64,000 nt of DNA from Bacteroidetes bacterium SW_9_63_38. GTDB lineage: Bacteria > Bacteroidota > Rhodothermia > Rhodothermales > Salinibacteraceae. The stretch spans positions 124,001 to 188,000 of the forward strand of contig PXUA01000003.1 in the NCBI GenBank assembly GCA_003022435.1. Reading direction: 5' to 3'. The first letter of the stretch is position 1; every line of letters starts with the position of its first letter. A program made the translations under genes and the position numbers. Below are positions 7,416 to 61,035 of the stretch, one piece after another. The notes under the pieces are model-generated. The model worked only from the letters and a program-made list of their open reading frames with translations. It ran no database searches and had not been told where the DNA came from.

Positions 7416-7444
7416 GAGAGTTGACCGAGACTGCGGAGCTGGGG

Positions 7445-15850: not shown

Positions 15851-17434
15851 CTACTCCCCGTCGCCCGTGCGGGTCTCCGCTCGCCCGTAGGTGAGAGTAA
15901 GCGTTGCCAGAAAGTCCTCCGCCTCCTCCGTGAGTTGTTCGGAGGTCACACGCCAGTCCCAGTTTCCACTCGGTTCGCCGGGGGTGTTCATGCGGGCCTC
16001 GCCCCCGAGCCCGAGCAGGTCCTGCAGCGGAAGGACGATCCGGTCGGCCACCGACGCCATGAGATAACGAAGCATTTGCTCGTGGACGGCCCGATCGGGC
16101 GCATCGAGATCAAGGTACTCGTGGGCATATGCCCGCGCCGACTCCGACGACAGGTCGTCGTCCCACCAGCCCATGGTCGTATTGTTGTCGTGGGTGCCCG
16201 AGTAGGCCACCAGGTTCCGGGTGTAGTTGTGGGGGAGGAAGGGGTTCGTCGGGTCGTCCTCGAACGCAAACTGCATGACCGCCATGCCCGGGAAGCCGAA
16301 TTCGTCCCGGAGGTCCTCGACCGAATCCGTGATGATGCCCAGGTCCTCCGCGATGACCGGGAGCTCCCCGAGATCATCGCTGAGCTCGCTGAAGAAGTGG
16401 GCGCCCGGGCCTTCGGCCCACTCGCCGTTGACGGCCGTTTCCGCCTCGGCAGGAATTTCCCAGTAGGCGTCGAAGCCGCGGAAGTGGTCGAGGCGCACGA
16501 GGTCCACCCGGTCGAGGGTATGCTGCATGCGGCGTTTCCACCACTCGTAGTCATTGTTCTTCATCTTGTCCCAGCGGTAGATGGGATTCCCCCAGCGCTG
16601 TCCTTCGGGGCTGAAGTAGTCGGGGGGGACGCCGGCCACGACCGTCGGCTCCCCGTTGTCGTCGAGCTTGAAGAGGTCCTGGTGGGCCCACACGTCGGCG
16701 CTGTCGCGCGCCACGTAGATGGGCAGGTCGCCGAAGAGGCGGATGCCGCGGGCATGGCAGTAGGAGCGGAGGGCCGTCCACTGGCGGTGGAAAAGGTACT
16801 GCCAGAAGACATGCATGCGGATCGCCTCGGCGTGCGTCTCGCGGGCCTGTGCGAGGGCGTCCGGCTCGCGATGCACGAGGGGGGCATCCCACTCGGTCCA
16901 GGGCGCGCCGTCGTGGGCCTCCTTCAGGGCAGCGTACAGGGCGTAGTCGTCGAGCCAGTCGGCGTGGTCGTTCCGGAACTGGCCGAGGTCGGCGTCGCTG
17001 ACGGCCGATCGGTCGGCCTCAAAGCGTTGGAAGGCAGTGCGGAGCACCTCCAGCTTGCGGGGGCTGACGCGCTCGTAGTCGACGTGGTCGTCGGGCAACT
17101 CGCGCAGCGGGGCGAGGTCGTCTTGCGTCAGCAGGCCGTATTCCACCAGCGGGTCGGGACTGATGAGCAGTGGGCTGCCCGCAAAGGTGGACGTGCTGGA
17201 ATAGGGCGAGGCGCCGAAGCCGGTCGGGCCGAGGGGGAGGACCTGCCAGAGGCGCTGGTCCGTCCGGGTCAAGAAGTCGGCGAAGCCGTAGGCGGCGGGG
17301 CCCAGGTCGCCGATCCCGTAGGAACTAGGCAGGGAGGTAATATGCAGGAGGATGCCGCTGACGCGTCGTGAATCCACAGGGACAGGCAGTTGATCAGGAA
17401 GAACGGGCACGCCCGAAAGAAGACATTCCCCCAT
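15851..17434 (-). CDS. malQ: 4-alpha-glucanotransferase (amylomaltase)
   Basis: A 527-residue GH77 enzyme that disproportionates malto-oligosaccharides. Seen in order are SGILLHITSLPSSYGIGDLGP at the N-terminus (start of the GH77 fold), WQVLPLGPTGFGASPYSS, the nucleophile region VRLDHFRGFDAYWEIP, the acid/base region PVIAEDLG and the C-terminal segment YSGTHDNNTTMGWW. The family usually begins just before SGILLH, so initiation at a GTG about 24 codons inside (before PVDSRRVSG) is a reasonable alternative to ATG 17434. In this context MalQ would convert short maltodextrins left by TreY/TreZ back into chains long enough for TreY. Located directly upstream of treZ. Confidence 0.95.
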   Translation of the reverse strand: MGECLLSGVPVLPDQLPVPVDSRRVSGILLHITSLPSSYGIGDLGPAAYGFADFLTRTDQRLWQVLPLGPTGFGASPYSSTSTFAGSPLLISPDPLVEYGLLTQDDLAPLRELPDDHVDYERVSPRKLEVLRTAFQRFEADRSAVSDADLGQFRNDHADWLDDYALYAALKEAHDGAPWTEWDAPLVHREPDALAQARETHAEAIRMHVFWQYLFHRQWTALRSYCHARGIRLFGDLPIYVARDSADVWAHQDLFKLDDNGEPTVVAGVPPDYFSPEGQRWGNPIYRWDKMKNNDYEWWKRRMQHTLDRVDLVRLDHFRGFDAYWEIPAEAETAVNGEWAEGPGAHFFSELSDDLGELPVIAEDLGIITDSVEDLRDEFGFPGMAVMQFAFEDDPTNPFLPHNYTRNLVAYSGTHDNNTTMGWWDDDLSSESARAYAHEYLDLDAPDRAVHEQMLRYLMASVADRIVLPLQDLLGLGGEARMNTPGEPSGNWDWRVTSEQLTEEAEDFLATLTLTYGRAETRTGDGE

Positions 17435-17717
17435 CAACAGTCAAATGAATGCCGATGTGAATCACAAGATACATGGCACAGCGGTCGTCGGGGGAGCGAG
17501 AGAGCGCGGAGGCACTGAGGCTGTGCCTCAGATGTGCGCCTGTGCTACTCAAGCAAGATGCAATTGCTGTGGAGCAGTGCGGGAGCGTGGGAGAATGGGA
17601 GCGTGGGAGAATATGGCGGTGCTGAGGCGTGGAGGCATCGCGTCACGAGGGCATGGAGGGCTGTGGGCGAGGGGGACGCTCTTCCGTGTGGATCTCACGC
17701 ACTCACGCCTCACGCAC
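17435..17717. repeat. Intergenic tracts between malQ and the PH-domain gene
   Basis: Holds two low-complexity tracts and no gene. At 17581-17612 there are GGGAGCGTGGGAGAAT units. At 17694-17726 there is a clean run whose minus-strand reading is GAGGCGTGAGTGCGTGAG repeated twice; the stop codon of the PH-domain gene (TGA, 17718-17720) is one of the repeated TGA triplets in this run. Confidence 0.7.
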
Positions 17718-19463
17718 TCACGCCTCATTCTTCGAGACGGGCAGGCGGGGGCGGTCCTCGATGCCGAGGCGGGTGTCGGGGGCGCCGCTGGCCTCCTCGA
17801 TGCGGGTACGGTAGAGGGTTTGGAAGCGGCGGTAGAGACGGTCCATTTGCGCGTCGGCCTCAACGGCGGGCAGGTCAATGACTTCCGGGTATGCAAACGT
17901 GGCGGCCCCGGCGGTGTCGACAAACAGGGTTTTGAGGTTGAGGCGCCGCTGAAAGAGGGTGGCAGTGGTGTGGAAGACGTGAAATTTCTCCGTTGGGAGA
18001 ATCCACAGGTAGTGTGAGATCACACCGCGTCGGATGTAAAGCCCGTCGTCCCGGACGGCGTATCCGTGGTTCCGGTACTGGAGGACCGCCCAGACCAGAA
18101 TGAAGGGCACGAGCCCAAACCCCCACCAGGGAAGGGCCACCCCGCCCAGGTGCCACCAGTCGGCCGGCCACGCATACACCCCGGATCCCAGGAGTGCCGA
18201 CAGGGCGAGGGTGTATCGGAAAAAACGCCGTCGGATGGTGAGGCGCGACACCGAGCCGAATGTCTCCGGAAGATCGAACGAGCGCACCTGCTGGGCCAGG
18301 GCCAGAATGTCCTCGTACTGTGCGAACGGTGCAATGACGCGGTGCCCCTGCTCGTTGACGTCCATCCCAATCGTTTGCACCTCCAACTCGTACCACCCGA
18401 ATACCCGCATGAGCGGATTTGTGCGCAGGATGAGGGCCTGCACCTTGCCGAGCGGAATGGTGCCCTCCGTCACGGTGAAGAGGCCGTGCCGCTTGCGTAG
18501 CTTGTCGCCGTCGAGCCACAGCGAAAAGCTGTAGTAGCGAGCAAGGTGGATCGCAATCCCGCTGATCCAGCCGAGCACCCCGGCGATCAAGAGCGTTCCC
18601 AAGAGGGTAAGAACCGGATGGGCCCCCATTGCTTCGGCAATCTGGTCGAGGCGCCCCCCAGGATGAACCGCGCGCTGAACGACGTTGCCGATGACCGCGG
18701 GGTCGATCAGCTGTACCGCCGAAAAGATGAGCGCAATGTACAGAAGGGAAAACCGAAACGCTCCGGACAGAAGCACGCGGGGGAGGTCCATCGCAAACAG
18801 CGATTCCCCGGGGGCGTCGTCCGTGTCCGCGTCGGCCGGAGCGCCTTCGGTGGTCCGGTGCTGGAACGAGCGCACCGCCTGACGGATCTCGTGGGCGTCG
18901 GAGAGGCTCACGTATTCGAGCGAGCCCTCCGTGGCGGAGCTGCCTGCCGTCTCGACAGTCACCTTTGCGAGCCCCAGGAGGCGGGCCACCAGGTTCTGCT
19001 GAGTTTGGATATTCTGGATGCGCTCGACTGGGATGCTGCGGTTCTGGCGCCGGATCACGCCCTTCTGAATGACGATCTGCTTCGGCGTGATGCGGTAGCT
19101 GAACCGGAGGTACTGGAGTACGATGGCCGGCAGGGCCACCAGCCCGTACACGACGCTGAGGATCACGGAGACGAGGTTCTCCGAACTGGGATTTTGGAGG
19201 GTGGGCAGCAGGATCACGACCAGGGCCGGGAGGCTGGCGCCCACCCGAAGCACGAGTGTGAGGGGATGGAGGCGCTGCGGCTCCTGCACGGCCCCGAGGG
19301 TGACGGACGAAGCTGGGGCCGACGCCGAATCGACCGCGGTACCGGACGCTTCCGTCCCCGCCGACTCAGCGTCCGGGGGGGCATCGGTCGCATCGGGAGC
19401 ATCCGCGTTCTCTGGACCGGCAGACGCGTCCGGGTCCGAGGCCGGGGACGACGAGGCAGGCAT
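17718..19463 (-). CDS. PH domain-containing membrane protein (YdbT-like)
   Basis: A 581-residue membrane protein built of repeated bacterial PH (bPH2, formerly DUF304) domains alternating with pairs of transmembrane helices, the architecture of Bacillus YdbT. Recognisable bPH2 cores are YRITPKQIVIQKGVI followed by IPVERIQNIQTQQN, later LDGDKLRKRHGLFTV with IPLGKVQALILRTNP, and YAVRDDGLYIRRGVI with LPTEKFHVFHTTATLFQRR. The N-terminal 60 residues are an Ala/Asp/Pro-rich, probably disordered cytoplasmic tail. Its start codon overlaps the stop of the smaller PH protein upstream (TAATG), so the two are translationally coupled. In Bacillus YdbS-YdbT contributes to resistance against antimicrobial compounds; here the role is not established. 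Confidence 0.88.
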   Translation of the reverse strand: MPASSSPASDPDASAGPENADAPDATDAPPDAESAGTEASGTAVDSASAPASSVTLGAVQEPQRLHPLTLVLRVGASLPALVVILLPTLQNPSSENLVSVILSVVYGLVALPAIVLQYLRFSYRITPKQIVIQKGVIRRQNRSIPVERIQNIQTQQNLVARLLGLAKVTVETAGSSATEGSLEYVSLSDAHEIRQAVRSFQHRTTEGAPADADTDDAPGESLFAMDLPRVLLSGAFRFSLLYIALIFSAVQLIDPAVIGNVVQRAVHPGGRLDQIAEAMGAHPVLTLLGTLLIAGVLGWISGIAIHLARYYSFSLWLDGDKLRKRHGLFTVTEGTIPLGKVQALILRTNPLMRVFGWYELEVQTIGMDVNEQGHRVIAPFAQYEDILALAQQVRSFDLPETFGSVSRLTIRRRFFRYTLALSALLGSGVYAWPADWWHLGGVALPWWGFGLVPFILVWAVLQYRNHGYAVRDDGLYIRRGVISHYLWILPTEKFHVFHTTATLFQRRLNLKTLFVDTAGAATFAYPEVIDLPAVEADAQMDRLYRRFQTLYRTRIEEASGAPDTRLGIEDRPRLPVSKNEA

Positions 19464-22451: not shown

Positions 22452-24221
22452 TCAGTCCTCTTCCAGCCGCAGGTCGCGGGCCTTGAGCTGGAGCGTCGTG
22501 TTGCCGCGCCACGTATTGTCCTCCAGCGAGAACAAGAGCTCGAGAGGGCGGCCTTCCTGTTGGCTCTGCTCGAGAACGGACAGTTTCTCCCCCATGCCGA
22601 ACCCGATGACGTCGTACGAGGCCCCGTTGCGGTCCTCGCGCTGCCGCACCTCGAACTTGAGGTGGCTGTCGTCGCTGCCGACGGTGCGGGGCGAGCCCAC
22701 CACGGCGAGGTCGGTGGCGTGGAAGACGGGGCGTGCGTTGGCCGGGCCGAAGGGACCGAACTGTTGGAGCACCGCCCAGAACCGATCGCCGATCGACTCG
22801 ATCTCGCGGAGGTCGAGCGCGGCATCCACCGTGATCGACGGTTGAAGCAGCTCCGGCGTAACGCGCTCGCCGACAGCCGCGTCGAACTGGTCGCGGAAAG
22901 CCTCGATGTTGTCGACCGGTAGCGACATACCTGCCGCGTGGTCGTGCCCGCCGAACTGCGTGAGCACGCCGGCACAGTCGGAGAGCGCCTCGTAGATGTT
23001 GATGCCCTCGATGGAGCGGGCCGAGCCCTTCACCGCCTCCCCGTTGTGGGTGAGCATGATGGTGGGCTTGTGGAAGCGCTCGACGATACTGCTGGCCACG
23101 ATGCCGATGACGCCGAGGTGCCAGTCCTCGTCGTAGAGCACGAGCGCGTGCGGACTGCGACTGGTAATCTGTCGCTCGGCCTTTTCGACGGCGGCCTCCT
23201 CGGCAGCGTCGTCGACGGAGCGGCGCTCGCGGTTGAGGCGTTCCAGCTCGGCGGCCAGCGGCTCGGCCTCCGTGTAGCTCTCGGCCAGCAGCAACTCGAC
23301 GGCCGTGGAGGCGTGTGCCATGCGCCCGGCGGCGTTGATGCGGGGGCCGAGGGTGAAGACGATGTTGCCGGTCGAGGTCACGTCGGCGAGGTCCAGGTCC
23401 GCCGCGTCGGCCAGGGCCCGCAGGCCGGGCCGCTCGCTCTGCTGGATCGCCCGCAGGCCCTCGGCCATGAGAACTCGGTTTTCGCCGTAGAGTGGGACGA
23501 TGTCGCTAGCCGTGGCGATGCCCAGCAGGTCAAGGTACTCGAAGGCGGTGTCCGGATCCGCGCCGAGGCGGTCGAGCGTGGCTTGTACGAGCTTGAAGCC
23601 GAGGCCGCAGCCGGAGAGCTCCGTAAACGGATAGTCGTCGTCCGGCCGCTTCGGGTCGATCACGGCGAAGGCGCTGGGGAGGTCGACGGTGTCGTCCTCA
23701 TGGAGCTGCGGCGTATGGTGGTCGCAGATGATGAGATCGAGTCCCCGCTCGCGGGCGTGGGCCGTCTCCTCGTGGGCCGTGATGCCGCAATCCAGCGCAA
23801 TAACGAGAGACGCATCGTGCTCGACGGCCGCGTCGAGGCCGCGTGTGCAGAGGCCGTAGCCGTCATCGTAGCGGTCGGGGATGAAGAACGAGGCGTCCAC
23901 GCCGCGTCGCCGAAGGAAGTCGCTGACCAATGCGGCGGCGGTGGTCCCGTCCACGTCGTAGTCCCCGTATACGAACACGCGTTCGCCGCGCTCAACGGCT
24001 TGTGCTACCCGGTCGGCCGCCGCGGGCATGTCCGCCATGTCGAGTGGATCGTGGAGGGCATCGCGATCAGCCCGAAAGAAGTGGCGGGCCTCCTCGAATG
24101 ATGTGACGCCGCGCAGGGCGAGGGCGCGGGCCAGGGCCGTGGGTAGATCGTTGAGCGCGTCCTGCAGATTGGACACGACCGCAGGGGTCTCCAGCGAACG
24201 GTCAATCCAGCGATAGGTCAT
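22452..24221 (-). CDS. recJ: Single-stranded-DNA-specific exonuclease RecJ
   Basis: A 589-residue DHH-family 5'-3' ssDNA exonuclease used in recombination and mismatch repair. The phosphoesterase motifs are visible in order: VYGDYDVDGTTAAAL (motif I), ALDCGITAHEE, IICDHHTP (DHH) and, in the DHHA1 half, FGGHDHAAGMSLP. FTLGPRINAAGRM lies between as in all RecJ proteins, and the C-terminal OB-like region with FEVRQREDRNGASYDVIGFGMG binds DNA. ATG 24221 (MTYRWIDRSLETPAVV) matches the family start; the frame open to 24455 is spurious. The 3' end is capped by tract repeats. Confidence 0.96.
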   Translation of the reverse strand: MTYRWIDRSLETPAVVSNLQDALNDLPTALARALALRGVTSFEEARHFFRADRDALHDPLDMADMPAAADRVAQAVERGERVFVYGDYDVDGTTAAALVSDFLRRRGVDASFFIPDRYDDGYGLCTRGLDAAVEHDASLVIALDCGITAHEETAHARERGLDLIICDHHTPQLHEDDTVDLPSAFAVIDPKRPDDDYPFTELSGCGLGFKLVQATLDRLGADPDTAFEYLDLLGIATASDIVPLYGENRVLMAEGLRAIQQSERPGLRALADAADLDLADVTSTGNIVFTLGPRINAAGRMAHASTAVELLLAESYTEAEPLAAELERLNRERRSVDDAAEEAAVEKAERQITSRSPHALVLYDEDWHLGVIGIVASSIVERFHKPTIMLTHNGEAVKGSARSIEGINIYEALSDCAGVLTQFGGHDHAAGMSLPVDNIEAFRDQFDAAVGERVTPELLQPSITVDAALDLREIESIGDRFWAVLQQFGPFGPANARPVFHATDLAVVGSPRTVGSDDSHLKFEVRQREDRNGASYDVIGFGMGEKLSVLEQSQQEGRPLELLFSLEDNTWRGNTTLQLKARDLRLEED

Positions 24222-25000: not shown

Positions 25001-26527
25001 ATGAAGATTTCCACCCTACAAGACAAGAAGCTCGACGAACTTCGCGACATCGCTCGCGAGCTGGATCTGCCGGGCTACTCGGACCTTCGGAAGCAAGATC
25101 TCATCTACCGCATTCTGGAGGCCCAGGCGGAGGGCGCTGCGTCCGGCGAGGAGCCGCTCGACGGGGCCGCCGAGGGCGACGGGGTGGCGGCAAGCGCTGC
25201 TCCCGGCGCGGCCGAGGCCGACGAAGCCTCTCAAGAGGAGGCGGCCTCTCAAGGAGAGGCGGCCTCTCAAGAAGAGGCGGCCTCCCAAGACGAGACGGAG
25301 GACGATACGACCGTTTCGGCATCCACTACATCGAATTCGTCTGCGTCGGACTCGTCGGGATCTTCCGGCAAGCCGGCGTACATGCAGACCTACGATCCCG
25401 ACGAGACGGAGCTCCGGGGGATGATTGAGAAGACCGGGCTCCTCGAAATTCTGCCGGACGGTTACGGCTTCCTTCGGTCCGACGAGTACAGCTACGAGTC
25501 GAGTCCCGACGACATCTACGTGTCGCCGTCGCAGATCAAGCGGTTTGGTCTGCAGGAGGGCGACACGGTACGCGGCTCGGTGCGCTCGCCGAAGGAGGGG
25601 GAGAAGTTCTTCGCCCTCATTCAGGTGGATGCCATCAACGGGTGCAACCCCGATGATGTCGAGGACCGCCGCGAGTTCGACTACCTGACGCCGATCTTTC
25701 CGAACGAACGGTTTATGCTGGAGACGGCGGCCGACGAATATGGGCCGCGCATTCTGGATCTGTTTGCCCCGATCGGGAAAGGACAGCGGGGGCTTATCGT
25801 CTCGCCGCCGAAGGCCGGAAAGACGGTGCTGCTACAGAAGATTGCTCACGGGCTTCGGGAAAACCATCCGGACACACACCTCCTTGTGTTGCTCATTGAC
25901 GAGCGGCCGGAGGAGGTGACTGATATGGATCGGAACGTGGATGGAGAAGTGGTGGCGTCGACCTTCGACAAGGATCCGGAGCAGCACGTAGAGGTGGCCG
26001 ACACGGTGCTTCGCAAAGTGAAGCGCCTCGTGGAGTCGGGGCAGGACGTGTGTGTGCTGCTGGACTCGATCACGCGCCTGGCACGCGCTCACAACGCCGT
26101 GACACCGGGGCAGGGGCGCACGCTCTCCGGCGGCATCGAGGCGGGAGCACTGCGCGGGCCCAAACGCTTTTTCGGCGCCGCGCGGAACGTGGAAGAGGGC
26201 GGCTCGCTCACAACCATAGGCACGGCCCTCGTGGACACGGGCAGCCGCATGGACGAGGTCATCTTCGAGGAGTTCAAGGGCACCGGCAACATGGAGCTCG
26301 TCCTCGACCGCGAGATGGCCGATCGCCGCGTCTACCCGGCCATCGACCTTATCCTGTCCGGGACCCGTCGCGAGGAGGAACTGCTCACGAAGCCGGAGCT
26401 GAAGCGCGTGTGGGTGATGCGAAAGATTTTGGCGGACATGGAACCGATCGAGGCCATGGAATTCCTGCTCGACAAGATGCGGGGCACAGAGAGCAACGAG
26501 GAGTTTCTGGAGACGATGAACTCGTAG
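25001..26527 (+). CDS. rho: Transcription termination factor Rho
   Basis: A 508-residue hexameric RNA helicase that ends transcription. The N-terminal domain ([20 protein letters not shown]) is followed by an 80-residue acidic, low-complexity insert (about 42-125) with tandem [14 protein letters not shown] repeats encoded by repeated DNA at 25226-25290. The cold-shock RNA-binding domain follows ([15 protein letters not shown]), then the motor: PPKAGKT near residue 269 (Walker A), [29 protein letters not shown] (Walker B), the Q loop [13 protein letters not shown] and the C-terminal [21 protein letters not shown]. Such inserts are common in Rho of Bacteroidota and actinobacteria. An intrinsic terminator lies just downstream. 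Confidence 0.97.
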
Positions 26528-36129: not shown

Positions 36130-36290
36130 GGAAGTGCTGGTAGAGAGCGTCGTCATTGGGAGAGTGGAGTGAAACGCGCGTAGCGCACCGATGGGGCAGC
36201 ACCGATGTTCCTCGTCTTGTCTTTGCCCCGACGGGGTGCTTGTTTGGGAGCGTCGTTCGCGTCGATTTTCCGTATACAGGGGATTTCTTC

Positions 36291-38813
36291 ATGTCTGTTC
36301 GTCACTGCTGGGTCGTGTGCTGCGTTCTTCTTGTGGCCGGGGTGCCGACGGCCGAGGCGCAGGAGGACGCCCAACTACAGTCGCCCTCAGCGTTTCTCGG
36401 GTACGAGCTCGGTGAGCAGTTCACGCCCCACCACCGCGTCGTCGACTACGTGCGGCATGTGACGGCCCACTCGCCCGCCGCCACGGTGCGGCAGCACGGC
36501 ACCACCCCTGAGGGGCGGCCCCTACTCTTGACGACCCTCACCACGCCGCGCAACCACGAGCGGATCGACACCATTCGCCGCTCGAATCTGAAGCGGGCCG
36601 GGCAGGTCGACGGGACGCCGCAGGCCGACGTGGCCGTGGCCTGGCTCAGCTACAACGTTCACGGCGACGAGCCGGCCCCCACCGAGGCGGCCCTCAAGAC
36701 GCTGCATGCCCTTGCCGACACGAGCACCGCGCGTCCCGACGGCGTTCGGGCGTCTCTAGAGAACACGGTCGTTCTCCTTGATCCGTGCCTCAACCCCGAC
36801 GGTCGTGCTCGCTATACGCAGTGGTTTCGGGAAACAGTGGGCACAGCGGCGAATCCCGATCCACCGGCGCGCGAGCACCATCCGCCCTGGGCGTCGGGCC
36901 GCACCAATCACTACTACTTCGACCTCAACCGCGACTGGGCATGGGGCGTGCAGCCCGAGACGCGGGCGCGGCTCAATGCCTATCACCGCTGGATGCCGAA
37001 CGTGCACGTCGATTACCATGAGATGGGCGTCGAGAACCCGTACTACTTCGCCCCGGGCGCGGAGCCGTACCACGAGAACCTGACCGACTGGCAACGGACG
37101 TTTCAGGAGACGGTCGGGCGGCACAATGCCCGGATCTTTGACCGCAACGGCTGGCTCTATTTCACGAAGGAGGTGTACGACCTCTTGTATCCGGGGTACG
37201 GGGACACGTGGCCGCTTTTCAATGGGGCCGTGGGGATGACCTACGAGCAGGGTGGGGGAGCGCGGGCGGGGCGGGCGGTGACGACGAACGGGGACACGCT
37301 CACGCTGGCCGAGCGGCTGTCCCACCACCACGCAACGGCTCTGTCGACGGTCGAGGTCGTCGCGGCGCATCGCGCGGAGGTGCTTCGGGCGTTTGCGACG
37401 TATCACGAGTCGGCGCAGGAGGACCCGCCCGGGCGGTACCGCACGTACGTGGTGCATCGGCAGGGGGAGGGGGGGCGCGTGGCGGCCCTGGCGCAACTGC
37501 TGGATCGTCAGCATATTCAGTACGAGTATGTGCGTGAGACGGCACGCGTCCGGGGCTACTCCTACCGGGAGGGCACGATGGAGCGCACCCGCATTCAGCG
37601 GGGCGACCTCCTCGTCCACGCCGCGCAGCCGAAGGGGCGGCTTGTGAAGGTGCTCTTCGAGCCGAAAACGACCGTCGTCGATTCGGCAGCGTACGACATC
37701 ACGGCCTGGGGGCTGCCTTACGCGTACGGCGTAAACGCCCATGCCGTCCCGGAGCGGGTTGACGTGACCACGACGACGACCCCGCCGATCTCGGGCTCGA
37801 CAGCCCTGTCGGCGGACCGGCCGTACGCCTACGCGATCACGTGGCGGAGTCGGGCCGACGCTCGTTTCGTCGGGGCGCTGCTACAGGCCGGCGTTCGTCT
37901 CCGGGTGGCGACAAAGGGATTCACTGTGGACGACCAGTCCTACGAGACGGGGACCCTCCTTGCACTGCGAGCCGATAACGAGAGCCCGGCATTTGACGAC
38001 ACGGTGCGGGGGCTCGCTCGACGGCACGAGCAACGGCTCCACGCCCTCGAAACGGGCCTTACGGAGCAGGGCCCTGATCTGGGAGCGAGCAGCGTGCGGA
38101 CTGTCGACCGGCCCCGTGTGGCGCTCTTAGCCGGAGCGCCGATGCGACTGGAGCGGGTGGGAGAGGTGTGGCACTTCTTTGAGCAGACGATCGAGTATCC
38201 GGTGACGCTGCTCCCGCCCGACGACTTCGACGCCTCCATGCTTGACAATGTCGATGTGCTCGTGCTGCCGGACGGCGACTACGACGACTGGCTGGCGGGA
38301 GCGCGTGCGTCTGCAATCACGCGCTGGGTGCGGAACGGGGGGCGACTCATCGCGCTCGGCGACGCGAATGCGGCCCTCGCCGAGCGGCCCTCTTATCATC
38401 TTTCGTCGAGAACCTCGTCGGGAGCCGTACGGGGCGACACGACGGGAACCGGCGCCCGGTCCGGAGACGAGACGCCGTCCGCACCCGGCAGCATTCACCG
38501 CGTGGAGCTCGACTCGTCGCATCCGCTTACGTTTGGTCTCGACGGCCCGTACTTCACGCTCAAGCGGGACACGGAGGCCTACACGTTGTCGAAGGCCGAC
38601 GGCTGGGCGGCGGGGGCACTCATGACGGCGGCGCCGGTGAGTGGGGTCATGGGAACGGAGGCGCAGCAGGCAGTGGAGGGAAGCGTGCTGTTCGGCACCC
38701 AAAAGTTGGGCGACGGGCGCGTGGTCTACCTCGTGGACAATCCGCTTTTTCGCGGCTTCTGGTACAGTGGCCACGTTCTGTTCAGCAACGCCGTGTTTAT
38801 GGGGGGACGTTGA
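36291..38813 (+). CDS. M14 family zinc carboxypeptidase with C-terminal GATase-like region
   Basis: An 840-residue exported peptidase. The signal peptide (WVVCCVLLVAGVPTAEAQ) is followed by an M14 domain: zinc ligands His and Glu in YNVHGDEPAPTEA, substrate Arg/Asn region DPCLNPDGRARY with NRDWAWGVQPETRARL, and the third ligand His in MPNVHVDYHEMGVENPYYF. After about residue 600 comes a Rossmann-like block (VALLAGAPMRLERVGEVWHF, NVDVLVLPDGDYDDWLAGAR), similar to the class I glutamine amidotransferase-like domains attached to many Bacteroidota M14 peptidases. It probably degrades peptides outside the cytoplasm. The stop codon TGA (38811-38813) lies inside a GCGTT-type tract. Confidence 0.9.
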   Translation: MSVRHCWVVCCVLLVAGVPTAEAQEDAQLQSPSAFLGYELGEQFTPHHRVVDYVRHVTAHSPAATVRQHGTTPEGRPLLLTTLTTPRNHERIDTIRRSNLKRAGQVDGTPQADVAVAWLSYNVHGDEPAPTEAALKTLHALADTSTARPDGVRASLENTVVLLDPCLNPDGRARYTQWFRETVGTAANPDPPAREHHPPWASGRTNHYYFDLNRDWAWGVQPETRARLNAYHRWMPNVHVDYHEMGVENPYYFAPGAEPYHENLTDWQRTFQETVGRHNARIFDRNGWLYFTKEVYDLLYPGYGDTWPLFNGAVGMTYEQGGGARAGRAVTTNGDTLTLAERLSHHHATALSTVEVVAAHRAEVLRAFATYHESAQEDPPGRYRTYVVHRQGEGGRVAALAQLLDRQHIQYEYVRETARVRGYSYREGTMERTRIQRGDLLVHAAQPKGRLVKVLFEPKTTVVDSAAYDITAWGLPYAYGVNAHAVPERVDVTTTTTPPISGSTALSADRPYAYAITWRSRADARFVGALLQAGVRLRVATKGFTVDDQSYETGTLLALRADNESPAFDDTVRGLARRHEQRLHALETGLTEQGPDLGASSVRTVDRPRVALLAGAPMRLERVGEVWHFFEQTIEYPVTLLPPDDFDASMLDNVDVLVLPDGDYDDWLAGARASAITRWVRNGGRLIALGDANAALAERPSYHLSSRTSSGAVRGDTTGTGARSGDETPSAPGSIHRVELDSSHPLTFGLDGPYFTLKRDTEAYTLSKADGWAAGALMTAAPVSGVMGTEAQQAVEGSVLFGTQKLGDGRVVYLVDNPLFRGFWYSGHVLFSNAVFMGGR

Positions 38814-38854
38814 GCGTTCTGCGTTGGGCGTTTTGGGTTGTGCGTTGAACGTTG
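38808..38854. repeat. GCGTT-type tract over the M14 stop codon
   Basis: Reads CGTTGAGCGTTCTGCGTTGG and continues with GCGTTTTGGGTTGTGCGTTGAACGTTGG in 9-10-base steps. The TGA of the first unit is the stop codon of the peptidase gene. Confidence 0.75.
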
Positions 38855-38980
38855 GTCCGGTTTGACGTTCTGAATCGGGCGGGGGCTCTTCGGGAAAAGA
38901 GGGCGGGCCGATCAGGAACTGCCGCTGAGGGGCGGCCATTGGTATCATCCTGTCATCGTTTCTTCACAATCTGGTGTGCC

Positions 38981-39604
38981 ATGGCGACGACTACTGCTCC
39001 TTCGCCTTCTTTCCCTTCTCTACCTTCGAACGATCAGGTTCACCGCCGTGAGCGTCGTCTCTCGGTGGACGACTACCTTGCGATGGGACGCGCAGGCATC
39101 CTGGACGAGGACGACCGGGTTGAACTTCTCAATGGCCGTCTAATCAACATGACCCCGATTGGTCCCCCACACAGCCACAGCGTCAACGCCCTTGAACGGC
39201 TCTTGGCCCGTCGGCTGTATGACAAGGATCCGGCACCGGCTCACATCAGCGTCCAAAATCCGATCCAACTCAGTGAGCACAGCGCGCCGGAGCCGGACCT
39301 CGTGCTCTACGATCCCGAGATGCCCCGCGACCGTCATCCGCATCCCGAGGATATTTTTCTCGTCGTGGAGGTGGCCGAAAGTAGCATCGACTACGACCGC
39401 ACCGTGAAGGCGGCTCACTACGCGGCGGCGGGGCTTCCGGAGTGCTGGCTCGTCGATCTGTCCCATGAACGTGTAGACGTATTTCGCCAACCGGAAGACG
39501 ACGGCTACGCCGAGCGGCATCGGCACCGGGCCGGAGACGAACTCCCAATTTCAATGTTGCCGGACATCAAGGCGCTTCCGGTTGATGAAATCGTCGAGGG
39601 GTAA
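38981..39604 (+). CDS. Uma2 family (DUF820) nuclease-fold protein
   Basis: A 207-residue protein of the Uma2/DUF820 family, which has a PD-(D/E)XK restriction-endonuclease fold. Family landmarks are RRLSVDDYLAMGRAGILDED, RVELLNGRLINMTPIGPPHS, EPDLVLYDP (catalytic Asp region), then IFLVVEVAESSIDYDRTVKAAHYAAAG with the Glu of the core and the closing ECWLVDLSHERVDVFRQP. The family is greatly expanded in cyanobacteria and in Salinibacter-like bacteria; its role is unknown, with links to mobile DNA. A GCGTT-type tract (39610-39637) follows the stop. Confidence 0.88.
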   Translation: MATTTAPSPSFPSLPSNDQVHRRERRLSVDDYLAMGRAGILDEDDRVELLNGRLINMTPIGPPHSHSVNALERLLARRLYDKDPAPAHISVQNPIQLSEHSAPEPDLVLYDPEMPRDRHPHPEDIFLVVEVAESSIDYDRTVKAAHYAAAGLPECWLVDLSHERVDVFRQPEDDGYAERHRHRAGDELPISMLPDIKALPVDEIVEG

Positions 39605-39609
39605 GTGTC

Positions 39610-39637
39610 AGGCGTTATGCGTTGAGCGTTATCGGCG
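39610..39637. repeat. GCGTT-type tract after the Uma2 stop
   Basis: Reads GGCGTTATGCGTTGAGCGTT, beginning within six bases of the TAA stop codon. Confidence 0.7.
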
Positions 39638-39677
39638 GGTGGTTGAGGTGGACATTTGAATAAGGCGCAGGCACACA

Positions 39678-40357
39678 ATGGCAACGGCTGAGCGGTTTGA
39701 GGACCTTCGGTGTTGGCAAACGGCGCGCCGCTTGACGAACCTGGTGCATGAGTATTCAGAAGAGGGGGCGTTCGCGGGCGACTTCGGCCTGAAAGATCAG
39801 ATCCAGCGGGCGGGCGTCTCAATTATGAGCAACATCGCAGAAGGGTTTACTGATACGTGAATGGGTTCTTAAAGACGATTCCGACCAGTAGCGGACCACG
39901 GTCCTCCCCGTAGGAGAGAATAAAGTTTACCTACCCGTGCACGGGGATCTCGTGCAAAATGACTCCTGCATTGGAGATCTGAGATCTCCTCCCTGGTAGC
40001 GCCGCTAGAGGCAAGCACGCTTGCCAGGATCACTTGAGCGTCATTCTGCAGCTTCGCCCACTGTGTCTCGGCTGAACATCAATCCACCAAACAGCTTCTA
40101 ACAGTCGTACGACAGGGCGCTTTATCGATTATTTGGGACGGGCGCGTGGATCGGCTACCGAAGTGCAATTCCAGCTTTACATGGCCCTTGATCAGGGCTG
40201 CATCGAGGACGGGCAGTTCGACACCGCGTATGATTGCGCCGACAAAGCGTCCCGGTAGATTTACCGTTTCACGGAATACCTCAAGTCCAATTCAGACGGC
40301 GACAGCATACACGAGCCGGGGGTATCGTATGATGTGCCCGAACCGCACATTCAGTGA
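39678..40357 (+). pseudogene. Four-helix-bundle protein (23S rRNA-IVP family), split by MITE-B
   Basis: The N-terminal half ([18 protein letters not shown] to [14 protein letters not shown]) is a clear match to the four-helix-bundle (TIGR02436) family and ends in a stop at 39858. The missing C-terminal half reappears in a readable frame from about 40100: RFIDYLGRARGSATEVQFQL, YMALDQGCIEDGQFDTAYD and ADKASR, then an in-frame TAG at 40256, then IYRFTEYLKSN. So about 250 bases are inserted in the middle, and there is also a nonsense change. Family members occur as rRNA intervening-sequence ORFs and as free genes. Confidence 0.8.
39849..40098 (-). mobile_element. MITE-B copy 2, inverted, inside the four-helix-bundle gene
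   Basis: Read on the minus strand, it starts GAAGCTGTTTGGTGG, a diverged form of the MITE-B left end, continues with CCGAGACACAGTGGGCGAAG and TGGCAAGCGTGCTTGCC, and includes GGAGATCTGAGATCTCC and the adjoining CTCCTCCCTGGTAGC in common with copy 1. The distal end (39849-39960) is different from copy 1 and resembles 30763-30850 instead. The end at 40098 is well placed; the other end is inferred from where the host gene stops making sense. Confidence 0.65.
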
Positions 40358-40434
40358 GCTCAGCTAAACGCTGTTCAGGTTCAGGCTCCATACGTTCGGG
40401 CGACCTTCTTCCCGCCTTACCGAACGCATTCCAT

Positions 40435-40502
40435 CAACTTCCAACCCTCAACGCAAAACGCCCAACGCAAAACGCTCAACCCTCAACGCCTAACGCAGAA
40501 CG
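40435..40502. repeat. GCGTT-type tract over the uvrA stop codon
   Basis: Read on the minus strand: GTTCTGCGTTAGGCGTTGAG, then GGTTGAGCGTTTTGCGTTGG and GCGTTTTGCGTTGAGGG. The TAG of the first unit (40490-40492) is the uvrA stop codon, exactly as at the M14 gene. Confidence 0.75.
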
Positions 40503-43414
40503 TCTCGCAGAAAGCGGCCCGTGTGACTATCGTCGCAGGCAGCAACCTCTTCCGGCGTCCCAGCCACGACCACCTCGCCGCCGTCGTCCCCGCCTTCCGG
40601 CCCCAGATCGATCACGTGGTCGGCGTACTTAATCACGTCGAGGTTGTGCTCGATGATGAGCACCGAATGCCCGTCCTCCACCAGCTGATCGAAGGCCGTC
40701 AGGAGCTGCTTGATGTCGTCGAAGTGAAGGCCGGTGGTGGGCTCATCGAAGATGTAGAGCGTGCGGTCCGAGGTGCGCCCGTTGAGGTGGCTGGCCAGCT
40801 TGATGCGTTGGGCTTCGCCGCCGCTAAGGGTCGTGGAGGGTTGCCCGAGCGTCAGGTAGCCGAGTCCGATCTTCTGCAGCGTCTCTAGCTTGTTGGTGAT
40901 CGCCCGCTCGCCCTCGAAGAAGTCGGCGGCCTCGTCCACCGTCATGTCGAGGACGTCGGCAATCGTCTTGCCGTTGTAGGTGACGTTGAGGGTCTCCGTC
41001 TTGTAGCGCTGCCCGTTACAGGCCTCGCACTCCAGGTAGAGGTCCGCCAGGAACTGCATTTCCACCTTCACCACGCCTTGGCCCTCGCACTTCTCGCAGC
41101 GCCCGCCGGCGGTGTTGAAGCTGAAGAAGCCCTTGTCGTAGCCGTGCACCTGCGCCTGGCGCGTGTTGGCGAAGAGCTTGCGGATGCCGTCGAACGCGTT
41201 CGTGTAGGTGGCGGGATTGGAGCGCGGCGAGCGCCCGATGGACTGCTGATCGACCATCTCGACGGCGTCCACATTCTCGTGTCCGCGGAGGGCGTCGTGG
41301 GCGCCCACCTTGCCGTCGCCGCTGCCGCCCTTGCGGCGGTGCAGGGCCTCAAAGAGGGTCTGGTTGGTGAGGGTCGACTTGCCGGAGCCGCTGACGCCGG
41401 TGACGCACGTGATCATGCCTAGCGGGACGGTCACGTCGATGCCCTTGAGGTTGTGCTGATGGGCGTTCTCGACCGTGATGGTGTCGTCGGGATCGACTGA
41501 CCGCCGATCCTCGGGGACCTCGATATTTTTGCGTCCGCTCAGGTACTGGCCGGTCAGCGAGTCCTCATCCTCCAGAATCTCGTCGTAGGTCCCCTGGAAG
41601 ACGACCTTCCCGCCGAACGCGCCGGAGCCGGGGCCGAGGTCCACGAGCTGATCGGCCGCCTCCATGGTCACCGGGTCGTGCTCCACCACCAGCACCGTGT
41701 TGCCGAGGGCGCGCAGGCGCTGCAGGATGTCGATGAGGCGCTCGTTGTCGCGGGGATGGAGGCCCACGGTGGGCTCGTCGAGCACATAAAGCGAGCCGAC
41801 GAGCGACGAGCCGAGGGAGGTCGACAGGTTGATGCGCTGGGTCTCGCCGCCGGAGAGGGTCTGCGAGAGGCGGTCGAGCGTCAGGTAGTCGAGGCCCACG
41901 TCCACGAGGTAGCGGCTCCGCTCGCGCAGCTCCTCCATCACCCGCCCGGCGACCTCCTGCTCGTACTCGGTGAGCTCTAAGGACTTGAAGTATTCGTGGG
42001 CTTCCCGCGTGGTCATCGCGCAGATCTCGCCGATGTGTTTCTTCTCCACATTGTCGCCGCCCACCTTCACGCAGAGGGCGTCGTCGCAGAGGCGGTACTC
42101 CTCGCAGTCCGGGCACTCGGAGTAGCCCCGGAAGCGGGCGCGGAAGATGCGGTAGTGGCGCTTGTAGGAGTTCTCCTCCAGGAAGCGAAAGAAGCCCTTG
42201 AGGCCGATGTAGTCGTCCTTGCCCTCCCACACAATTTCTTCCTCCCAGTCCGCCAGCTCGCGGTAGGGACAGTCGATGTTGAGCCCCACGTCGGCGGCCA
42301 CGGCAATCAGGTCCTTGAAGTGCTTCGACCACTTGTCGCCGCGGAACGGGACGAGGGCGCCTTCGCGGATGGAGAGCTCCTTGTTCGGGATGATGAGATC
42401 CTCGTCGAGCCCGGCCACGCGCCCGAAGCCCTGGCACGTCGGGCAGGCGCCCACCGGGCTGTTGAAGCTGAAGAGCTGCGGGGTCGGCTCCTGGAATTCG
42501 ATACCATCACGCTCAAAGCGGGCGCTGAACCGGTGGGTCGGCACCCCGTCCGTGGGCGGCTCGTCGCGGTCCCGGAGGGCAGGAACGACCACACAGCGGT
42601 CGTCGCCCTCGTCGAACGCCTGCTCGACCGACTCCGCAATGCGGGAGCGGGTATCTTCGTCCTCCGCCTTCACCTTGAGACGGTCGATGAGGACGAGCAG
42701 GCGGTCGCGCCCGTAGCTGTTGACACTGCTGGGCTCCTGCTGGGTGAGGTCGAGGGTCTCCGGCGTTTTTCCCTGTTCCGCTTGCTGCTCGGTGGGGAGG
42801 AGCAGGACGCGGTAGAACCCGCGCTCGCGCAGACTTTTCAACTGATCGCGCAGGGCCATGCCGGCCCGCTCGGGGATCGGGGCGCAGAGGTAGAAGCGGC
42901 TGCCGTCGCCCAGCTCGTCTTCGAGGGTGAGCGCCACGTCGTGCGGCGAATCTTTGCTCACCGGTGTGCCGCTGACGGGGGAGTACGTGGTGCCGATGCG
43001 GGCGAAGAGGAGGCGCAGGTGGTCGTAGATTTCCGTCTGCGTAGCGACGGTCGAGCGCGGGTTGTTGCCCGAGGTTTTCTGCTCGATGGCGATGGCGGGG
43101 GCGAGACCTGTAATGAGGTCTGCCTCCGGCTTGTCCATCCGCTCCAGGAACTGGCGCGCGTAGGCGCTCAGGCTCTCCACGTAGCGGCGCTGGCCCTCAG
43201 CGTAAATGGTGTCGAAGCAGAGGCTCGACTTGCCGGAGCCGGACGGGCCGGTAAACACGATGAGCTCATTGCGCGGCAGGTCGAGGTCCACGTCCTTCAG
43301 GTTGTGCTGCCGCGCCCCGCGGATCACGATGTGGTCCTGCGCCGACTCGCGGGCCGTGACCGACGCGTTGGCGATGACGGGGTCCTGCGTAGGAATCGAT
43401 TCGGCGGTGGGCAT
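40490..43414 (-). CDS. uvrA: Excinuclease ABC subunit A
   Basis: A 974-residue damage-recognition ATPase of nucleotide excision repair. It has two ABC modules: the first with GPSGSGKSSLCFDTIYAEGQ and LSGGETQRINLSTSLGSSL plus YVLDEPTVGLHPRDN, the second with GVSGSGKSTLTNQTLFEAL and LSGGEAQRIKLASHL plus YIFDEPTTGLHFDD. Zinc-binding Cys pairs occur at CPTCQGFG, CPDCEEYRLC, CEKCEGQG and CEACNGQR. RSPRSNPATYTNAFDGIRKLF is the UvrA signature. The protein starts with about 25 extra residues before HIVIRGARQHNLKDV. Two dyad sequences upstream (43536-43577) are candidate operators. No uvrB or uvrC lies in the window. Confidence 0.97.
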   Translation of the reverse strand: MPTAESIPTQDPVIANASVTARESAQDHIVIRGARQHNLKDVDLDLPRNELIVFTGPSGSGKSSLCFDTIYAEGQRRYVESLSAYARQFLERMDKPEADLITGLAPAIAIEQKTSGNNPRSTVATQTEIYDHLRLLFARIGTTYSPVSGTPVSKDSPHDVALTLEDELGDGSRFYLCAPIPERAGMALRDQLKSLRERGFYRVLLLPTEQQAEQGKTPETLDLTQQEPSSVNSYGRDRLLVLIDRLKVKAEDEDTRSRIAESVEQAFDEGDDRCVVVPALRDRDEPPTDGVPTHRFSARFERDGIEFQEPTPQLFSFNSPVGACPTCQGFGRVAGLDEDLIIPNKELSIREGALVPFRGDKWSKHFKDLIAVAADVGLNIDCPYRELADWEEEIVWEGKDDYIGLKGFFRFLEENSYKRHYRIFRARFRGYSECPDCEEYRLCDDALCVKVGGDNVEKKHIGEICAMTTREAHEYFKSLELTEYEQEVAGRVMEELRERSRYLVDVGLDYLTLDRLSQTLSGGETQRINLSTSLGSSLVGSLYVLDEPTVGLHPRDNERLIDILQRLRALGNTVLVVEHDPVTMEAADQLVDLGPGSGAFGGKVVFQGTYDEILEDEDSLTGQYLSGRKNIEVPEDRRSVDPDDTITVENAHQHNLKGIDVTVPLGMITCVTGVSGSGKSTLTNQTLFEALHRRKGGSGDGKVGAHDALRGHENVDAVEMVDQQSIGRSPRSNPATYTNAFDGIRKLFANTRQAQVHGYDKGFFSFNTAGGRCEKCEGQGVVKVEMQFLADLYLECEACNGQRYKTETLNVTYNGKTIADVLDMTVDEAADFFEGERAITNKLETLQKIGLGYLTLGQPSTTLSGGEAQRIKLASHLNGRTSDRTLYIFDEPTTGLHFDDIKQLLTAFDQLVEDGHSVLIIEHNLDVIKYADHVIDLGPEGGDDGGEVVVAGTPEEVAACDDSHTGRFLRDVLR

Positions 43415-50294: not shown

Positions 50295-50384
50295 CGTGAT
50301 GCGTGAGGAGTAATGCGTGAAGAGTGAGGTGGGCGTAGGCAGCCTATCGCAAATCACCAGCAGCCTCACGTATTACGCATCACG
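50295..50384. repeat. Long inverted repeat between convergent genes
   Basis: CGTGATGCGT at 50295-50304 and its exact complement ACGCATCACG at 50375-50384 enclose shorter GCGTGA/TCACG repeats, giving an imperfect hairpin that starts two bases after the smc stop and ends seven bases before the stop of the next minus-strand gene. It may act as a bidirectional terminator. Confidence 0.6.
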
Positions 50385-54374: not shown

Positions 54375-55775
54375 TTATCCCTTGATGACGCCGAGGGGGC
54401 GCAACTGGGCGACTTTTTGCGAAAGCCCGGCGCCTTCGACGGCGTCTACGACATTGGCCACGTCCTTGTAGGCCGCCGGAATCTCCTCACGGACCGTGCG
54501 GCTGCTTTCGCCGCGGACGACGATGCCCTCGTCGGCCAGCTCGGCGGTGATGTTTCGGTTGCCGGCGGTCTTGCGGGCCTCCCGTCGGCTCATCCGGCGC
54601 CCGGCCCCGTGGCACGTACTGCCAAACGTGTCGTCCATCGCCTTTTCGGTGCCCACGAGGACGTATGAGTAGCGGCCCATGTCGCCGGGGATGAGCACGG
54701 GCTGGCCCACGTTCTGGTAGCAGCCCGGCACGAGCGGGAGCGGGTGGCCGGCGGGCAGCGCACGCGTGGCGCCTTTTCTGTGCACGCACACCTCTTGCTC
54801 GCGACCGTCCACGCGGTGGGTTTCGAACTTGGCGATATTGTGGGCGACCTCGTAGACGGTGTGCAGGCCGTGCTCGCGCGGCGTCAGGTCGAGGGCGCTC
54901 TCGAAGGCGAGGCGCGTGTTGTGGGCCATGACCTGCCGGTTGGGAAAGGCGTAGTTGAGGGCGCACTTCATGCCGCGGAGGTATTTGCGGTCCTCCGGGG
55001 AGTCGACGGGCGTGCAGGCAAGCTGGCGGTCGGGGAGGTCAATGTTGTACTTGTTCATGGCCCGGTCTATGTCCGGCAGCGCGCCGTCGCAGACCTGGTA
55101 GCCGAAGCCGCGGCTGCCGGAGTGGATGATGGCGGTCACTGAGCCTTCCTGGAGGCCCAGGACGCGGGCGGGGTTGTCGTCGTAGACCTCCGAGACGTAG
55201 CCGATCTCCAGAAAGTGGTTGCCGGAGCCGAGGGTGCCGATCTGATCGAGGCCGCGCTCCTTCGCCCGGGCGGAAACGGCGTCGGGGTCGGCCCCGTCGA
55301 CCTGACCGTTTTCCTCAATTACGTCGAGGTCGGCGTCGGAGCCGCAGTCGGTGTCTACGGCCCACTCGGCCCCGTTCCGAAGCACCTGCGGCAGCGTGGA
55401 GGCGTCGACGCGCAGGGCGCCGGACGATCCTACGCCCGTCGGGACGCGGTGGAAGAGGGCGTCGACGAGGCGCTCCTGGCCTGCCTGGTCGAGGTCGTCT
55501 TTTGTGAGTTTTGAGGACATCAGCCGCGCGCCGCAATTCACGTCGTACCCCCCCCCCCCCCCCCCGTAGTCCCAGTGAATGTCGGGCATGGCTAGGGAGG
55601 CGCCGAGGATGCCGGGCATATGGGCCACGTTGGCGGCCTGCTGGGGGGCGTCATCCGCTAGAATGTCCTTCAGCATCTCCTCGGTGGCGTAGAGGCGGGC
55701 GGGGACGCGCATCCCGTCGCGCTTCAGAATCTGCCGGCGGCAGTCGTCGAGTTTTTCGAGGTCGTAGTCGGGCAT
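54375..55775 (-). CDS. rtcB: RtcB family RNA ligase with internal homopolymer-linked deletion
   Basis: A 466-residue GTP-dependent 3'-phosphate/5'-OH RNA ligase homologue, the enzyme that seals tRNA and repairs cleaved RNA. Metal and guanylate residues are present: Asp/Cys in YDVNCGARLM, His in LGSGNHFLEIG, IIHSGSRGFGYQ, YEVAHNIAKFETH and the guanylated-His motif CHGAGRRMSR. The conserved N-terminal block is altered: after MPDIHW, where relatives continue with G-Y-G and about 20 more residues before G-Y-D-I-N-C-G, this protein has only D-Y and six Gly encoded by 18 consecutive G. The enzyme may therefore be damaged, or the sequence may be a misassembly. ATG 55775 gives the family start. Confidence 0.85.
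   Translation of the reverse strand: MPDYDLEKLDDCRRQILKRDGMRVPARLYATEEMLKDILADDAPQQAANVAHMPGILGASLAMPDIHWDYGGGGGGYDVNCGARLMSSKLTKDDLDQAGQERLVDALFHRVPTGVGSSGALRVDASTLPQVLRNGAEWAVDTDCGSDADLDVIEENGQVDGADPDAVSARAKERGLDQIGTLGSGNHFLEIGYVSEVYDDNPARVLGLQEGSVTAIIHSGSRGFGYQVCDGALPDIDRAMNKYNIDLPDRQLACTPVDSPEDRKYLRGMKCALNYAFPNRQVMAHNTRLAFESALDLTPREHGLHTVYEVAHNIAKFETHRVDGREQEVCVHRKGATRALPAGHPLPLVPGCYQNVGQPVLIPGDMGRYSYVLVGTEKAMDDTFGSTCHGAGRRMSRREARKTAGNRNITAELADEGIVVRGESSRTVREEIPAAYKDVANVVDAVEGAGLSQKVAQLRPLGVIKG
55548..55565. repeat. 18-base C homopolymer inside rtcB
   Basis: Eighteen consecutive C on the plus strand (G on the coding strand), the longest homopolymer in the window by far. It encodes six Gly and sits exactly where about 18-20 conserved residues of RtcB are absent. 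Confidence 0.9.
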
Positions 55776-60774: not shown

Positions 60775-61035
60775 CGATTGTCGAATTACGAATACATCTT
60801 CGAGTTGCGAGTGTCGAATTGCGAATGAGGAGGGGGGGTAGGGACGGGCGATTACACGTTGGCAGGCCTTCAAGGAGGTCGGAGGCACTTTTGCTGTTCA
60901 TCGACCCCTGTGCCGGAATGAACGGACGCCTGGAGGCCTGGAGGCAAAGACGCTCTGCGCTACCGCTGGGGGAATCATGGAGCAGGAGGCAATCGCCCTG
61001 GGCGACAGGATTCGACATTCGCAAATCGAAAATCG
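60775..61035. repeat. TTCGAA-type and GGATGC-type tracts between two genes
   Basis: At 60775-60828 and 61008-61035 there are degenerate units such as GTCGAATTACGAATAC, GAGTTGCGAGTGTCGAATTG and CGACATTCGCAAATCGAAAA; the second lies just after the stop of the minus-strand DinB-like gene. Between them, 60880-61002 resembles 63616-63719 near the window end (shared TGTTCATCGA-like, TACCGCT and GAGGCAATCGCC blocks) and also contains the GGACGCCTGGAGGC type of unit. Confidence 0.65.

Follow-up and report, generated by a model that had tools for sequence, protein, structure and literature searches.

Why do genes in one stretch of the genome of Bacteroidetes bacterium SW_9_63_38 end on, or within a few bases of, short degenerate tandem repeats? 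The stretch, called the window throughout, comprises 64,000 nucleotides (positions 124001–188000 of contig C3, PXUA01000003.1) of a draft genome of 2.84 Mb in 19 contigs, which is 84% complete and is designated the source genome, or G000. A preliminary description had reported tracts with a 7–10-base rhythm placed at stop codons, and had proposed either a role at mRNA 3′ ends or a slippage process seeded at gene ends. We arrive at another explanation, namely that the tracts probably come from small foldback elements with a gene for the four-helix-bundle protein S23 (PF05635), some as the inverted arms of an element and others as relics in which only arms are left. A complete element would consist of a G/T-rich tract of 7- or 8-base units, an S23 gene in either orientation and the A/C-rich complement of the tract, and a gene-free element would be a hairpin of about 60–380 bp. 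The elements of one genome would differ in unit, and many gene-free tracts would bear the units of the S23 elements resident there. A candidate lies in the window between Uma2 and uvrA, where a broken S23 gene is flanked by tracts at 39612 and 40435:

36240–38813, plus strand: zinc carboxypeptidase (M14) gene (Pfam PF00246), its stop within a tract
38808–38854, plus strand: GCGTTNN arm over the M14 stop, G/T-rich in gene sense, with the TGA at 38811–38813 inside CGTTGAGCGTT
38984–39604, plus strand: Uma2 gene (PF05685) between two GCGTT tracts
39612–39630, plus strand: left arm of the S23 element, rich in G/T and 7 nt past the Uma2 stop, pairing with 40435–40502
39699–39881, plus strand: broken S23 gene, piece 1, with internal TGA and TAA (PF05635, 54.2 bits)
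40097–40264, plus strand: broken S23 gene, piece 2, with internal TAG (PF05635, 29.5 bits, under the family cut-off)
40435–40502, minus strand: right-hand arm of this element, A/C-rich when read on the plus strand, lying over the uvrA stop (40490–40492 inside)
40490–43414, minus strand: uvrA, C-terminal DVLR before the stop, which lies within the tract

Short-period tracts at gene ends

The window and 40 further stretches of the source genome, 856 kb in total with a G+C content of 63%, were analyzed together. A custom script called 729 genes (79% coding; some gene starts are uncertain), and tracts were located by a period-7/8 detector, at a score of at least 12 for period counts and at least 10 for placement. 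At the higher threshold, tracts of periods 7 and 8 number 30 + 30 between genes and 1 + 3 within them, shuffled sequence yields 0.0 per repeat (3 shuffles), and, among the periods from 5 to 12 that were tried, non-multiples of three other than 7 and 8 are almost missing. The short period noted earlier is therefore real, while its range narrows to mostly 7 or 8 bases. Single units recur at many sites: GCGTTNNx3 has 51 overlapping matches at 24 places in the genome, against 2 for a reversed control.

The coordinates of the M14, uvrA and bacterial PH-domain genes were verified, and all three stop codons lie inside tracts. At recJ, SulP, Uma2, smc and the DinB-like gene, a tract begins within about 10 nt of the stop by reading, the detector scoring only the DinB-like one there (9.8); the 15-base-period tract at the PH gene, outside the reach of the period-7/8 detector, was picked up by Tandem Repeats Finder. 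The suspected non-random placement holds over the 856 kb when compared with random placements: of 95 tracts in closed gaps, 32 are no more than 15 nt away from a 3′ end, where the null is 17.3 ± 3.2 (0/1000 placements as high). In eight relatives, 15 of 44 tracts do so, compared with 8.9 expected (7/1000); at 10 nt or less the same 44 tracts give 11 against 7.5, which is not significant (89/1000). Nor is the count within 15 nt of a 5′ end (15/95 against 12.3; 207/1000). Thus the tracts do stand at stop codons, as first described, but they adjoin start codons too, with the opposite strand orientation: within 15 nt, 31 of 32 tracts at stops are G/T-rich in gene sense and 14 of 15 tracts at starts are A/C-rich. 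One edge rule of symmetric elements covers both preferences: read on the plus strand, the outer edge is G/T-rich on the left and A/C-rich on the right. It is obeyed in 45/47 cases in the source genome and 22/23 in relatives; farther than 15 nt from gene ends it is not visible (8/16; 18/32). Because start codons can occur within G/T-rich tracts, the gene caller possibly contributes to the start-side rule. Foldback elements would bring their outer edges next to stops and starts because they occupy the gaps between genes; an arm that extends into the 3′ end of a gene would terminate the protein at one of its own in-frame stops, with a few residues altered at most.

S23 genes lie between inverted arms

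To what, then, do the tracts belong? A profile search with PF05635 gave 10 hits at 9 loci in the source genome. All nine loci have at least one adjoining 7/8-base tract and eight have inverted arms, among them the locus of the broken gene between Uma2 and uvrA, the ninth (L071) having a left arm only. The inversion is evident by alignment score at L072, L073, L074, L078 and L079, where the L079 alignment extended past the arms, and by reading at L075, L076 and L077, the best alignment at L076 having fallen outside the arms. The arm units vary among these elements (GTGTGGGA, GCNTGGA, GGCGAAG, GATGGTN, CAATGA-like, TTCGAAT, GCGTTNN and GCGTATT). Among 299 other control genes of the same genome the 95th percentile of the inverted score is 16.0. 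Uma2 (PF05685), which has 23 matches (L081–L103) in the 2.84 Mb of G000, was considered as mobile cargo and rejected, with 0 of the 17 Uma2 loci tested reaching an inverted score of 16. Across the family, S23 is present in 25 of 27 genomes, with 0 to 12 hits each and some copies containing stops; 19 of 29 family S23 loci reach an inverted score of at least 17, compared with 19 of 296 control genes.

Pairing also extends to tracts as such. The 14 pairs of neighboring tracts less than 500 bp apart comprise 6 convergent (5 of the same family), 0 divergent and 8 same-direction pairs, and when partner arms were sought up to 1.2 kb to either side of 91 tracts, 15 tracts (13 pairs) had convergent partners and 0 had divergent ones, where chance gives 2.5. 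When eight arm pairs, seven of them chosen among the best convergent pairs, were folded as RNA, z ranged from −7.2 to −1.4; at most 1 of 200 shuffles was as good in five pairs, and 2, 6 and 18 were in the remaining ones.

The protein between the arms is itself maintained. Seven of eight close S23 pairs, four of which share members, have a ratio of nonsynonymous to synonymous substitution rates (dN/dS) of 0.05–0.12, the eighth being saturated; S23 is under purifying selection. The S23 profile matches PDB entries 2gsc (XCC0516) and 2rld, and in the solved Xanthomonas campestris structure S23 is a homopentamer.

Many gene-free tracts carry the units of resident elements

If gene-free tracts derive from S23 elements, their units should resemble the arms found in the same genome. 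For this comparison, gene-free tracts are the 96 that have no S23 gene within 1 kb, and the left arms of the nine source-genome loci were excised by hand. These arms match 55 of the 96; sets of nine arms from relatives match 14.0 ± 5.4, and 0 of 2000 draws reach 55, the relatives' pool being 29 loci with 2 dropped for want of a scored arm. Resident arms with permuted unit columns match 6.0. With all arms trimmed to 26 nt the counts are 32 for resident arms versus 8.7 for relatives' arms (0/2000), and when both resident arms are used, 67 of the 96 tracts are matched. The same test in other genomes used only a subset of their S23 loci: 16 of 23 gene-free tracts of G016 are matched by its own arms and 13 by those of the source genome, and both gene-free tracts of G014 are matched by its own arms and neither by source-genome arms. 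Genomes with more S23 loci also have denser tracts (nine genomes; rho 0.75, p 0.02, with G016 counted as six loci).

S23 elements in other phyla and on plasmids

The link between S23 and inverted flanks reaches into many phyla. A scan of genome contigs found at least 585 S23 loci, of which the best 80 were taken and 74 were testable, 6 being dropped for short flanks; the record titles name Bacteroidetes, Planctomycetota, Anaerolineaceae, Acidobacteriota, Proteobacteria, archaea and others, and the loci are not fully independent, several each coming from Flavobacterium, Capnocytophaga and Carboxylicivirga. Median scores over the 74 loci are 19.5 for inverted, 13.5 for direct and 11.8 for shuffled flanks (Wilcoxon p 6e-8). 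The inverted match exceeds all 10 shuffles at 53 of 74 loci, so complementary ends are not present at every locus. A 7/8-base tract lies within 250 bp of S23 at 60 of 74 loci and on both sides at 38; at 1.2–1.5 kb away the figures are 8 of 62 and 0. Period 7 accounts for 94 of the 115 tracts found near these loci. Of the two archaeal contigs, one has arms (L144) and one has none (L134).

Plasmids carry such loci as well. From 30 matching records, 8 loci were fetched, 7 cyanobacterial and 1 from Gemmatirosa. Arms are clear by score in Nostoc edaphicum (GGGAGTA), Anabaena 90 (GACAGGT), Nostoc C052 (GGGAACA) and Calothrix (GGGTGTA), that is, L358–L361, and by reading only at L362 and L364; the seven cyanobacterial loci thus divide into four with inverted heptamer arms clear by score, two by reading and one unclear. 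As to surroundings, S23 lies between cas6 and cas4 on the plasmids of Anabaena sp. 90 (L359) and Pseudanabaena galeata (L363), and between ribonucleotide reductase genes on that of Nostoc edaphicum (L358).

Patchy presence among relatives

Among relatives the presence of the tracts is patchy. Of 12 same-genus genomes, none has a scored tract at the uvrA stop, a few being G/T-rich there. UvrA ends in VL in nine of them, in VLE in two and in VLR in G010, as in the source genome, and at this stop G010 has an unscored GCGTTTTGCATCGGGC-like, GCGTT-like stretch, GCGTTTTGCATCGGGCATTTTGCATTG, possibly the decayed remains of a similar tract. At the PH stop no tract is seen by reading in any of the 12. 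At the M14 stop, four have scored tracts of other unit families, one (G003) has an unscored tract and seven have none visible; the M14 tracts of G010 and G011 also overlap the stop. The M14 protein ends in AVFMGGR in the source genome versus AV/IFFVGN(G/D/E) in same-genus orthologs. In this comparison the tracts at the uvrA, M14 and PH stops appear largely special to the source genome, with at most the last few residues altered.

Whole elements are similarly scattered. The source genome has an S23 element downstream of one gene and ahead of a MILIIDNYDSF-type start; at this site G008 and G009, which share an S23 locus with similar arms, carry S23 proteins 52% and 50% identical to that of the source genome and a different unit, and in G003 and G010 the corresponding gap is plain, at 123 and 124 bp, respectively. 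At a second shared site (L074 and L261) the S23 proteins are 58% identical and the arms differ.

Weighing the explanations

Could the tracts instead be 3′-end signals, kept for stopping transcription or for protecting or processing the mRNA end? The excess at stops invites this reading, the folding of five of the eight arm pairs better than nearly all shuffles is in keeping with it, and most Xanthomonas G-rich repeats are reported as transcribed (PMC4692102). It is set against a strand rule that is just as strict at starts, a unit that changes from gene to gene, and the state of the 12 relatives, in which no tract is scored at uvrA (G010 being doubtful) or read at PH and the units at M14 differ, so that a conserved role at mRNA 3′ ends is not supported. 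In window positions 10001–50000, moreover, scored tracts and terminator-like sites do not overlap anywhere, such sites being somewhat commoner there than in shuffles. The arms of foldback elements would account for the placement, so that the excess at stops does not require a role at mRNA ends, and the start-side strand rule, the relatives and the terminator scan of 40 kb led us to reject a transcription-end function as the leading explanation; we regard it as improbable. The other early proposal, slippage, would have repeats arise neutrally at gene ends and survive where no protein is spoilt, with no element involved. That tracts of period 7/8 are almost excluded from genes agrees with it, and a heptamer excess has been attributed to slippage (PMC4679880). 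Slippage may indeed lengthen tracts, but separate seeding at each gene end leaves the match to resident S23 arms unexplained, and it has to contend with one unit recurring at unlinked sites (the 24 places of GCGTTNNx3), partner arms that are inverted (15 versus 0 divergent) and a tract density that follows S23 number. As the sole cause, it is very improbable. A third possibility is that nothing is mobile and that S23 serves the host by binding RNA or DNA, the tracts being the scattered sites to which it binds. Purifying selection on S23, the locus with similar arms shared by G008 and G009, and the units common to arms and gene-free tracts would all fit; the range of 0 to 12 hits across the family with some copies containing stops, the plain gap in both relatives read at one occupied site, and the variation of arm units between loci of one genome do not, and we think this reading unlikely.

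The foldback-element explanation has its own difficulties. Resident arms leave 29 of the 96 gene-free tracts without any match, the eight gene-free tracts of G009 are all matched by its own arms and equally by those of the source genome, and own arms match only 1 of 3 in G010 and 0 of 3 in G003. The density correlation falls to rho 0.71 (p 0.05) once the source genome is removed, and G003, G007 and G010, with 5–6 S23 loci each, have only 3, 0 and 3 tracts per 200 kb. At unrelated sites S23 type and arm unit are weakly linked (Mantel rho 0.16; 6/1000), and close S23 pairs do not share arms significantly often (115/1000); the idea that each S23 clade has a single arm unit found weak support and was given up, and arms change faster than the protein. 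Direct scores are also raised: 15 of 29 family S23 loci reach at least 17 (29 of 296 controls), which short-period sequence allows, the direct flank match is above all shuffles at 24 of 74 cross-phylum loci, and on plasmids 4 of 8 loci are clear by score, direct scores being equally high at L363 and L365, which leaves the arms of these two unclear. The shared final Arg and the GCGTT-like stretch of G010 suggest that the source uvrA tract may not be new, and at the only occupied site compared with empty relatives, the relatives' gap sequence is not kept, so that the insertion is not clean. Between the arms of source-genome elements only S23 was seen and no mobility enzyme, in the course of reading rather than a systematic search for other genes, and no new insertion of an S23 element was observed. 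All of this counts against the explanation, and we nevertheless hold it to be probable.

How such foldback elements would spread is a more tentative matter. S23 might bind the arms of its own element in the form of folded RNA or single-stranded DNA, copies might move in foldback form aided by host enzymes, and hairpin-templated slippage might rewrite both arms together; as an account of movement, this scheme is doubtful.

Other features of the window

Several further tracts of the window lie outside the M14–uvrA region:

17718–19463, minus strand: bacterial PH-domain gene (PF03703), stop 17718–17720 in a GCGTGAG tract
17694–17727, minus strand: GCGTGAG/TGCGTGAG arm that covers the stop of the PH gene, 15-base period
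17566–17609, plus strand: GGGAGNGT-family tract in the gap shared with the PH tract, matching the arms of resident S23 element L072
22385–22426, plus strand: GGGAGCGT tract downstream of recJ (22452–24221, minus strand)
50299–50325, plus strand: ATGCGTGAAGAGTA tract 6 nt past smc, with a complementary stretch, by reading, after the convergent gene at 50391
61010–61035, minus strand: TTCGAATN tract after the DinB-like gene (61042–61593, minus strand)
61700–61734, minus strand: GTATGGGAG tract just past the gene at 61739–62458 (minus strand), matching the L072 arms
62729–62755, minus strand: TTCGA-family tract after the gene at 62764–63330 (minus strand)

Repeats of other kinds were noted in passing. 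Non-periodic, nearly perfect inverted repeats of about 100–125 bp (L045:7405–7530 with 8611–8738; L051:15598–15694 with 16916–17012) occupy the gaps around two control genes, a DUF1223 gene and a CoA-ligase gene, and an L051-like repeat is also found, by reading, near window positions 660–735 and 7370–7440; this looks like a dispersed element separate from the 7/8-base tracts. The rho gene contains an 18-base tandem repeat, GCCTCTCAAGAAGAGGCG, in 4.1 copies (window 25226–25298), and a C homopolymer of 18 nt (window 55548–55565) lies within a called frame (54375–55775, minus strand) near the start of an RtcB-like match.

Comparison with known systems

The closest parallel to an S23 gene with complementary ends, seen here at nine source-genome loci, is the intervening sequence (IVS) of 23S rRNA. 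Such an IVS encodes S23 and ends in inverted repeats, that of Coxiella having in addition tandem heptamers just upstream of S23 (PMC4990558), and S23 occurs in insertions of both 16S and 23S rRNA genes in candidate phyla radiation (CPR) bacteria (PMC11270868). Unlike the IVS, the elements described here are multicopy, lie between protein genes, have short-period arms specific to each locus and exist in gene-free forms; a location in rRNA was rejected for them, neither the window nor the 20 cross-phylum loci scanned (of 80) giving a match to rRNA.

S23 and Avd, a protein of diversity-generating retroelements, are regarded as related (PMC10053308). The S23 of L105 resembles bAvd weakly (E 0.0007, under the family cut-off). 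A retroelement of this type, diversifying by adenine mutagenesis, was considered and rejected: no reverse transcriptase (PF00078) was found in the source genome, 4 of 27 family genomes having one compared with 25 of 27 for S23, and variation is not adenine-specific, A making up 12% of the 418 unvarying tract columns on the G/T strand.

Repetitive extragenic palindromic sequences with their associated tyrosine transposases (REP/RAYT) and miniature inverted-repeat transposable elements (MITE) are likewise small intergenic inverted-repeat elements with forms that have and lack a gene. The S23 elements differ from both in that no transposase was seen between the arms of the source-genome elements as read and the ends are not one conserved sequence, the unit differing among elements.

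Short repeats at gene ends also have precedents. In Xanthomonas and Nostoc, G-rich heptamers (GGGAATC / GGGGA(C/T)T) with period 7 lie on the sense strand at most 50 bp from stops, overlap stops, stand antisense upstream of starts and form convergent pairs, 70 in one Xanthomonas genome and 75 in another; the authors see generally no link to mobile elements and propose a G-quadruplex role (PMC4692102), and neither "S23" nor "four helix" occurs in the main text of that paper. The source-genome tracts are like these in being sense at stops, antisense at starts and convergently paired, and unlike them in that the GCGTTNN unit has no GGG run, although other source families, such as GTGTGGGA, have one. 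The TAACTGA heptamers of Beggiatoaceae are intergenic, with 13 sets overlapping a stop and stops in all three frames; they lie mostly just upstream of starts, have one fixed unit and are explained as translational control (PMC4679880). Our tracts are likewise intergenic and overlap stops, and unlike these their units vary. Cyanobacterial STRR are short tandem repeats dispersed in cyanobacterial genomes.

Stop placement, the strand rule and convergent pairs are thus already known from Xanthomonas, and stop-overlapping heptamers from Beggiatoaceae. What appears new is the joining of S23 to dispersed repeats, for which no paper was found in the accessible open-access literature. It is possible, though we would not yet wager on it, that S23 foldback elements form a self-spreading class across bacteria, and perhaps archaea, without a transposase of their own and with arms rewritten pairwise into new 7–8-base units. 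If so, the degenerate heptamer repeats at gene ends in many bacterial genomes would have one cause, the widespread, selected and unexplained S23 four-helix bundle would gain a context, and in any genome the repeats should have the same units as the arms around its S23 genes. The relics of this class would then make up much of the long-known bacterial heptamer repeats, and the rRNA intervening sequences would be the special case that landed in rRNA.

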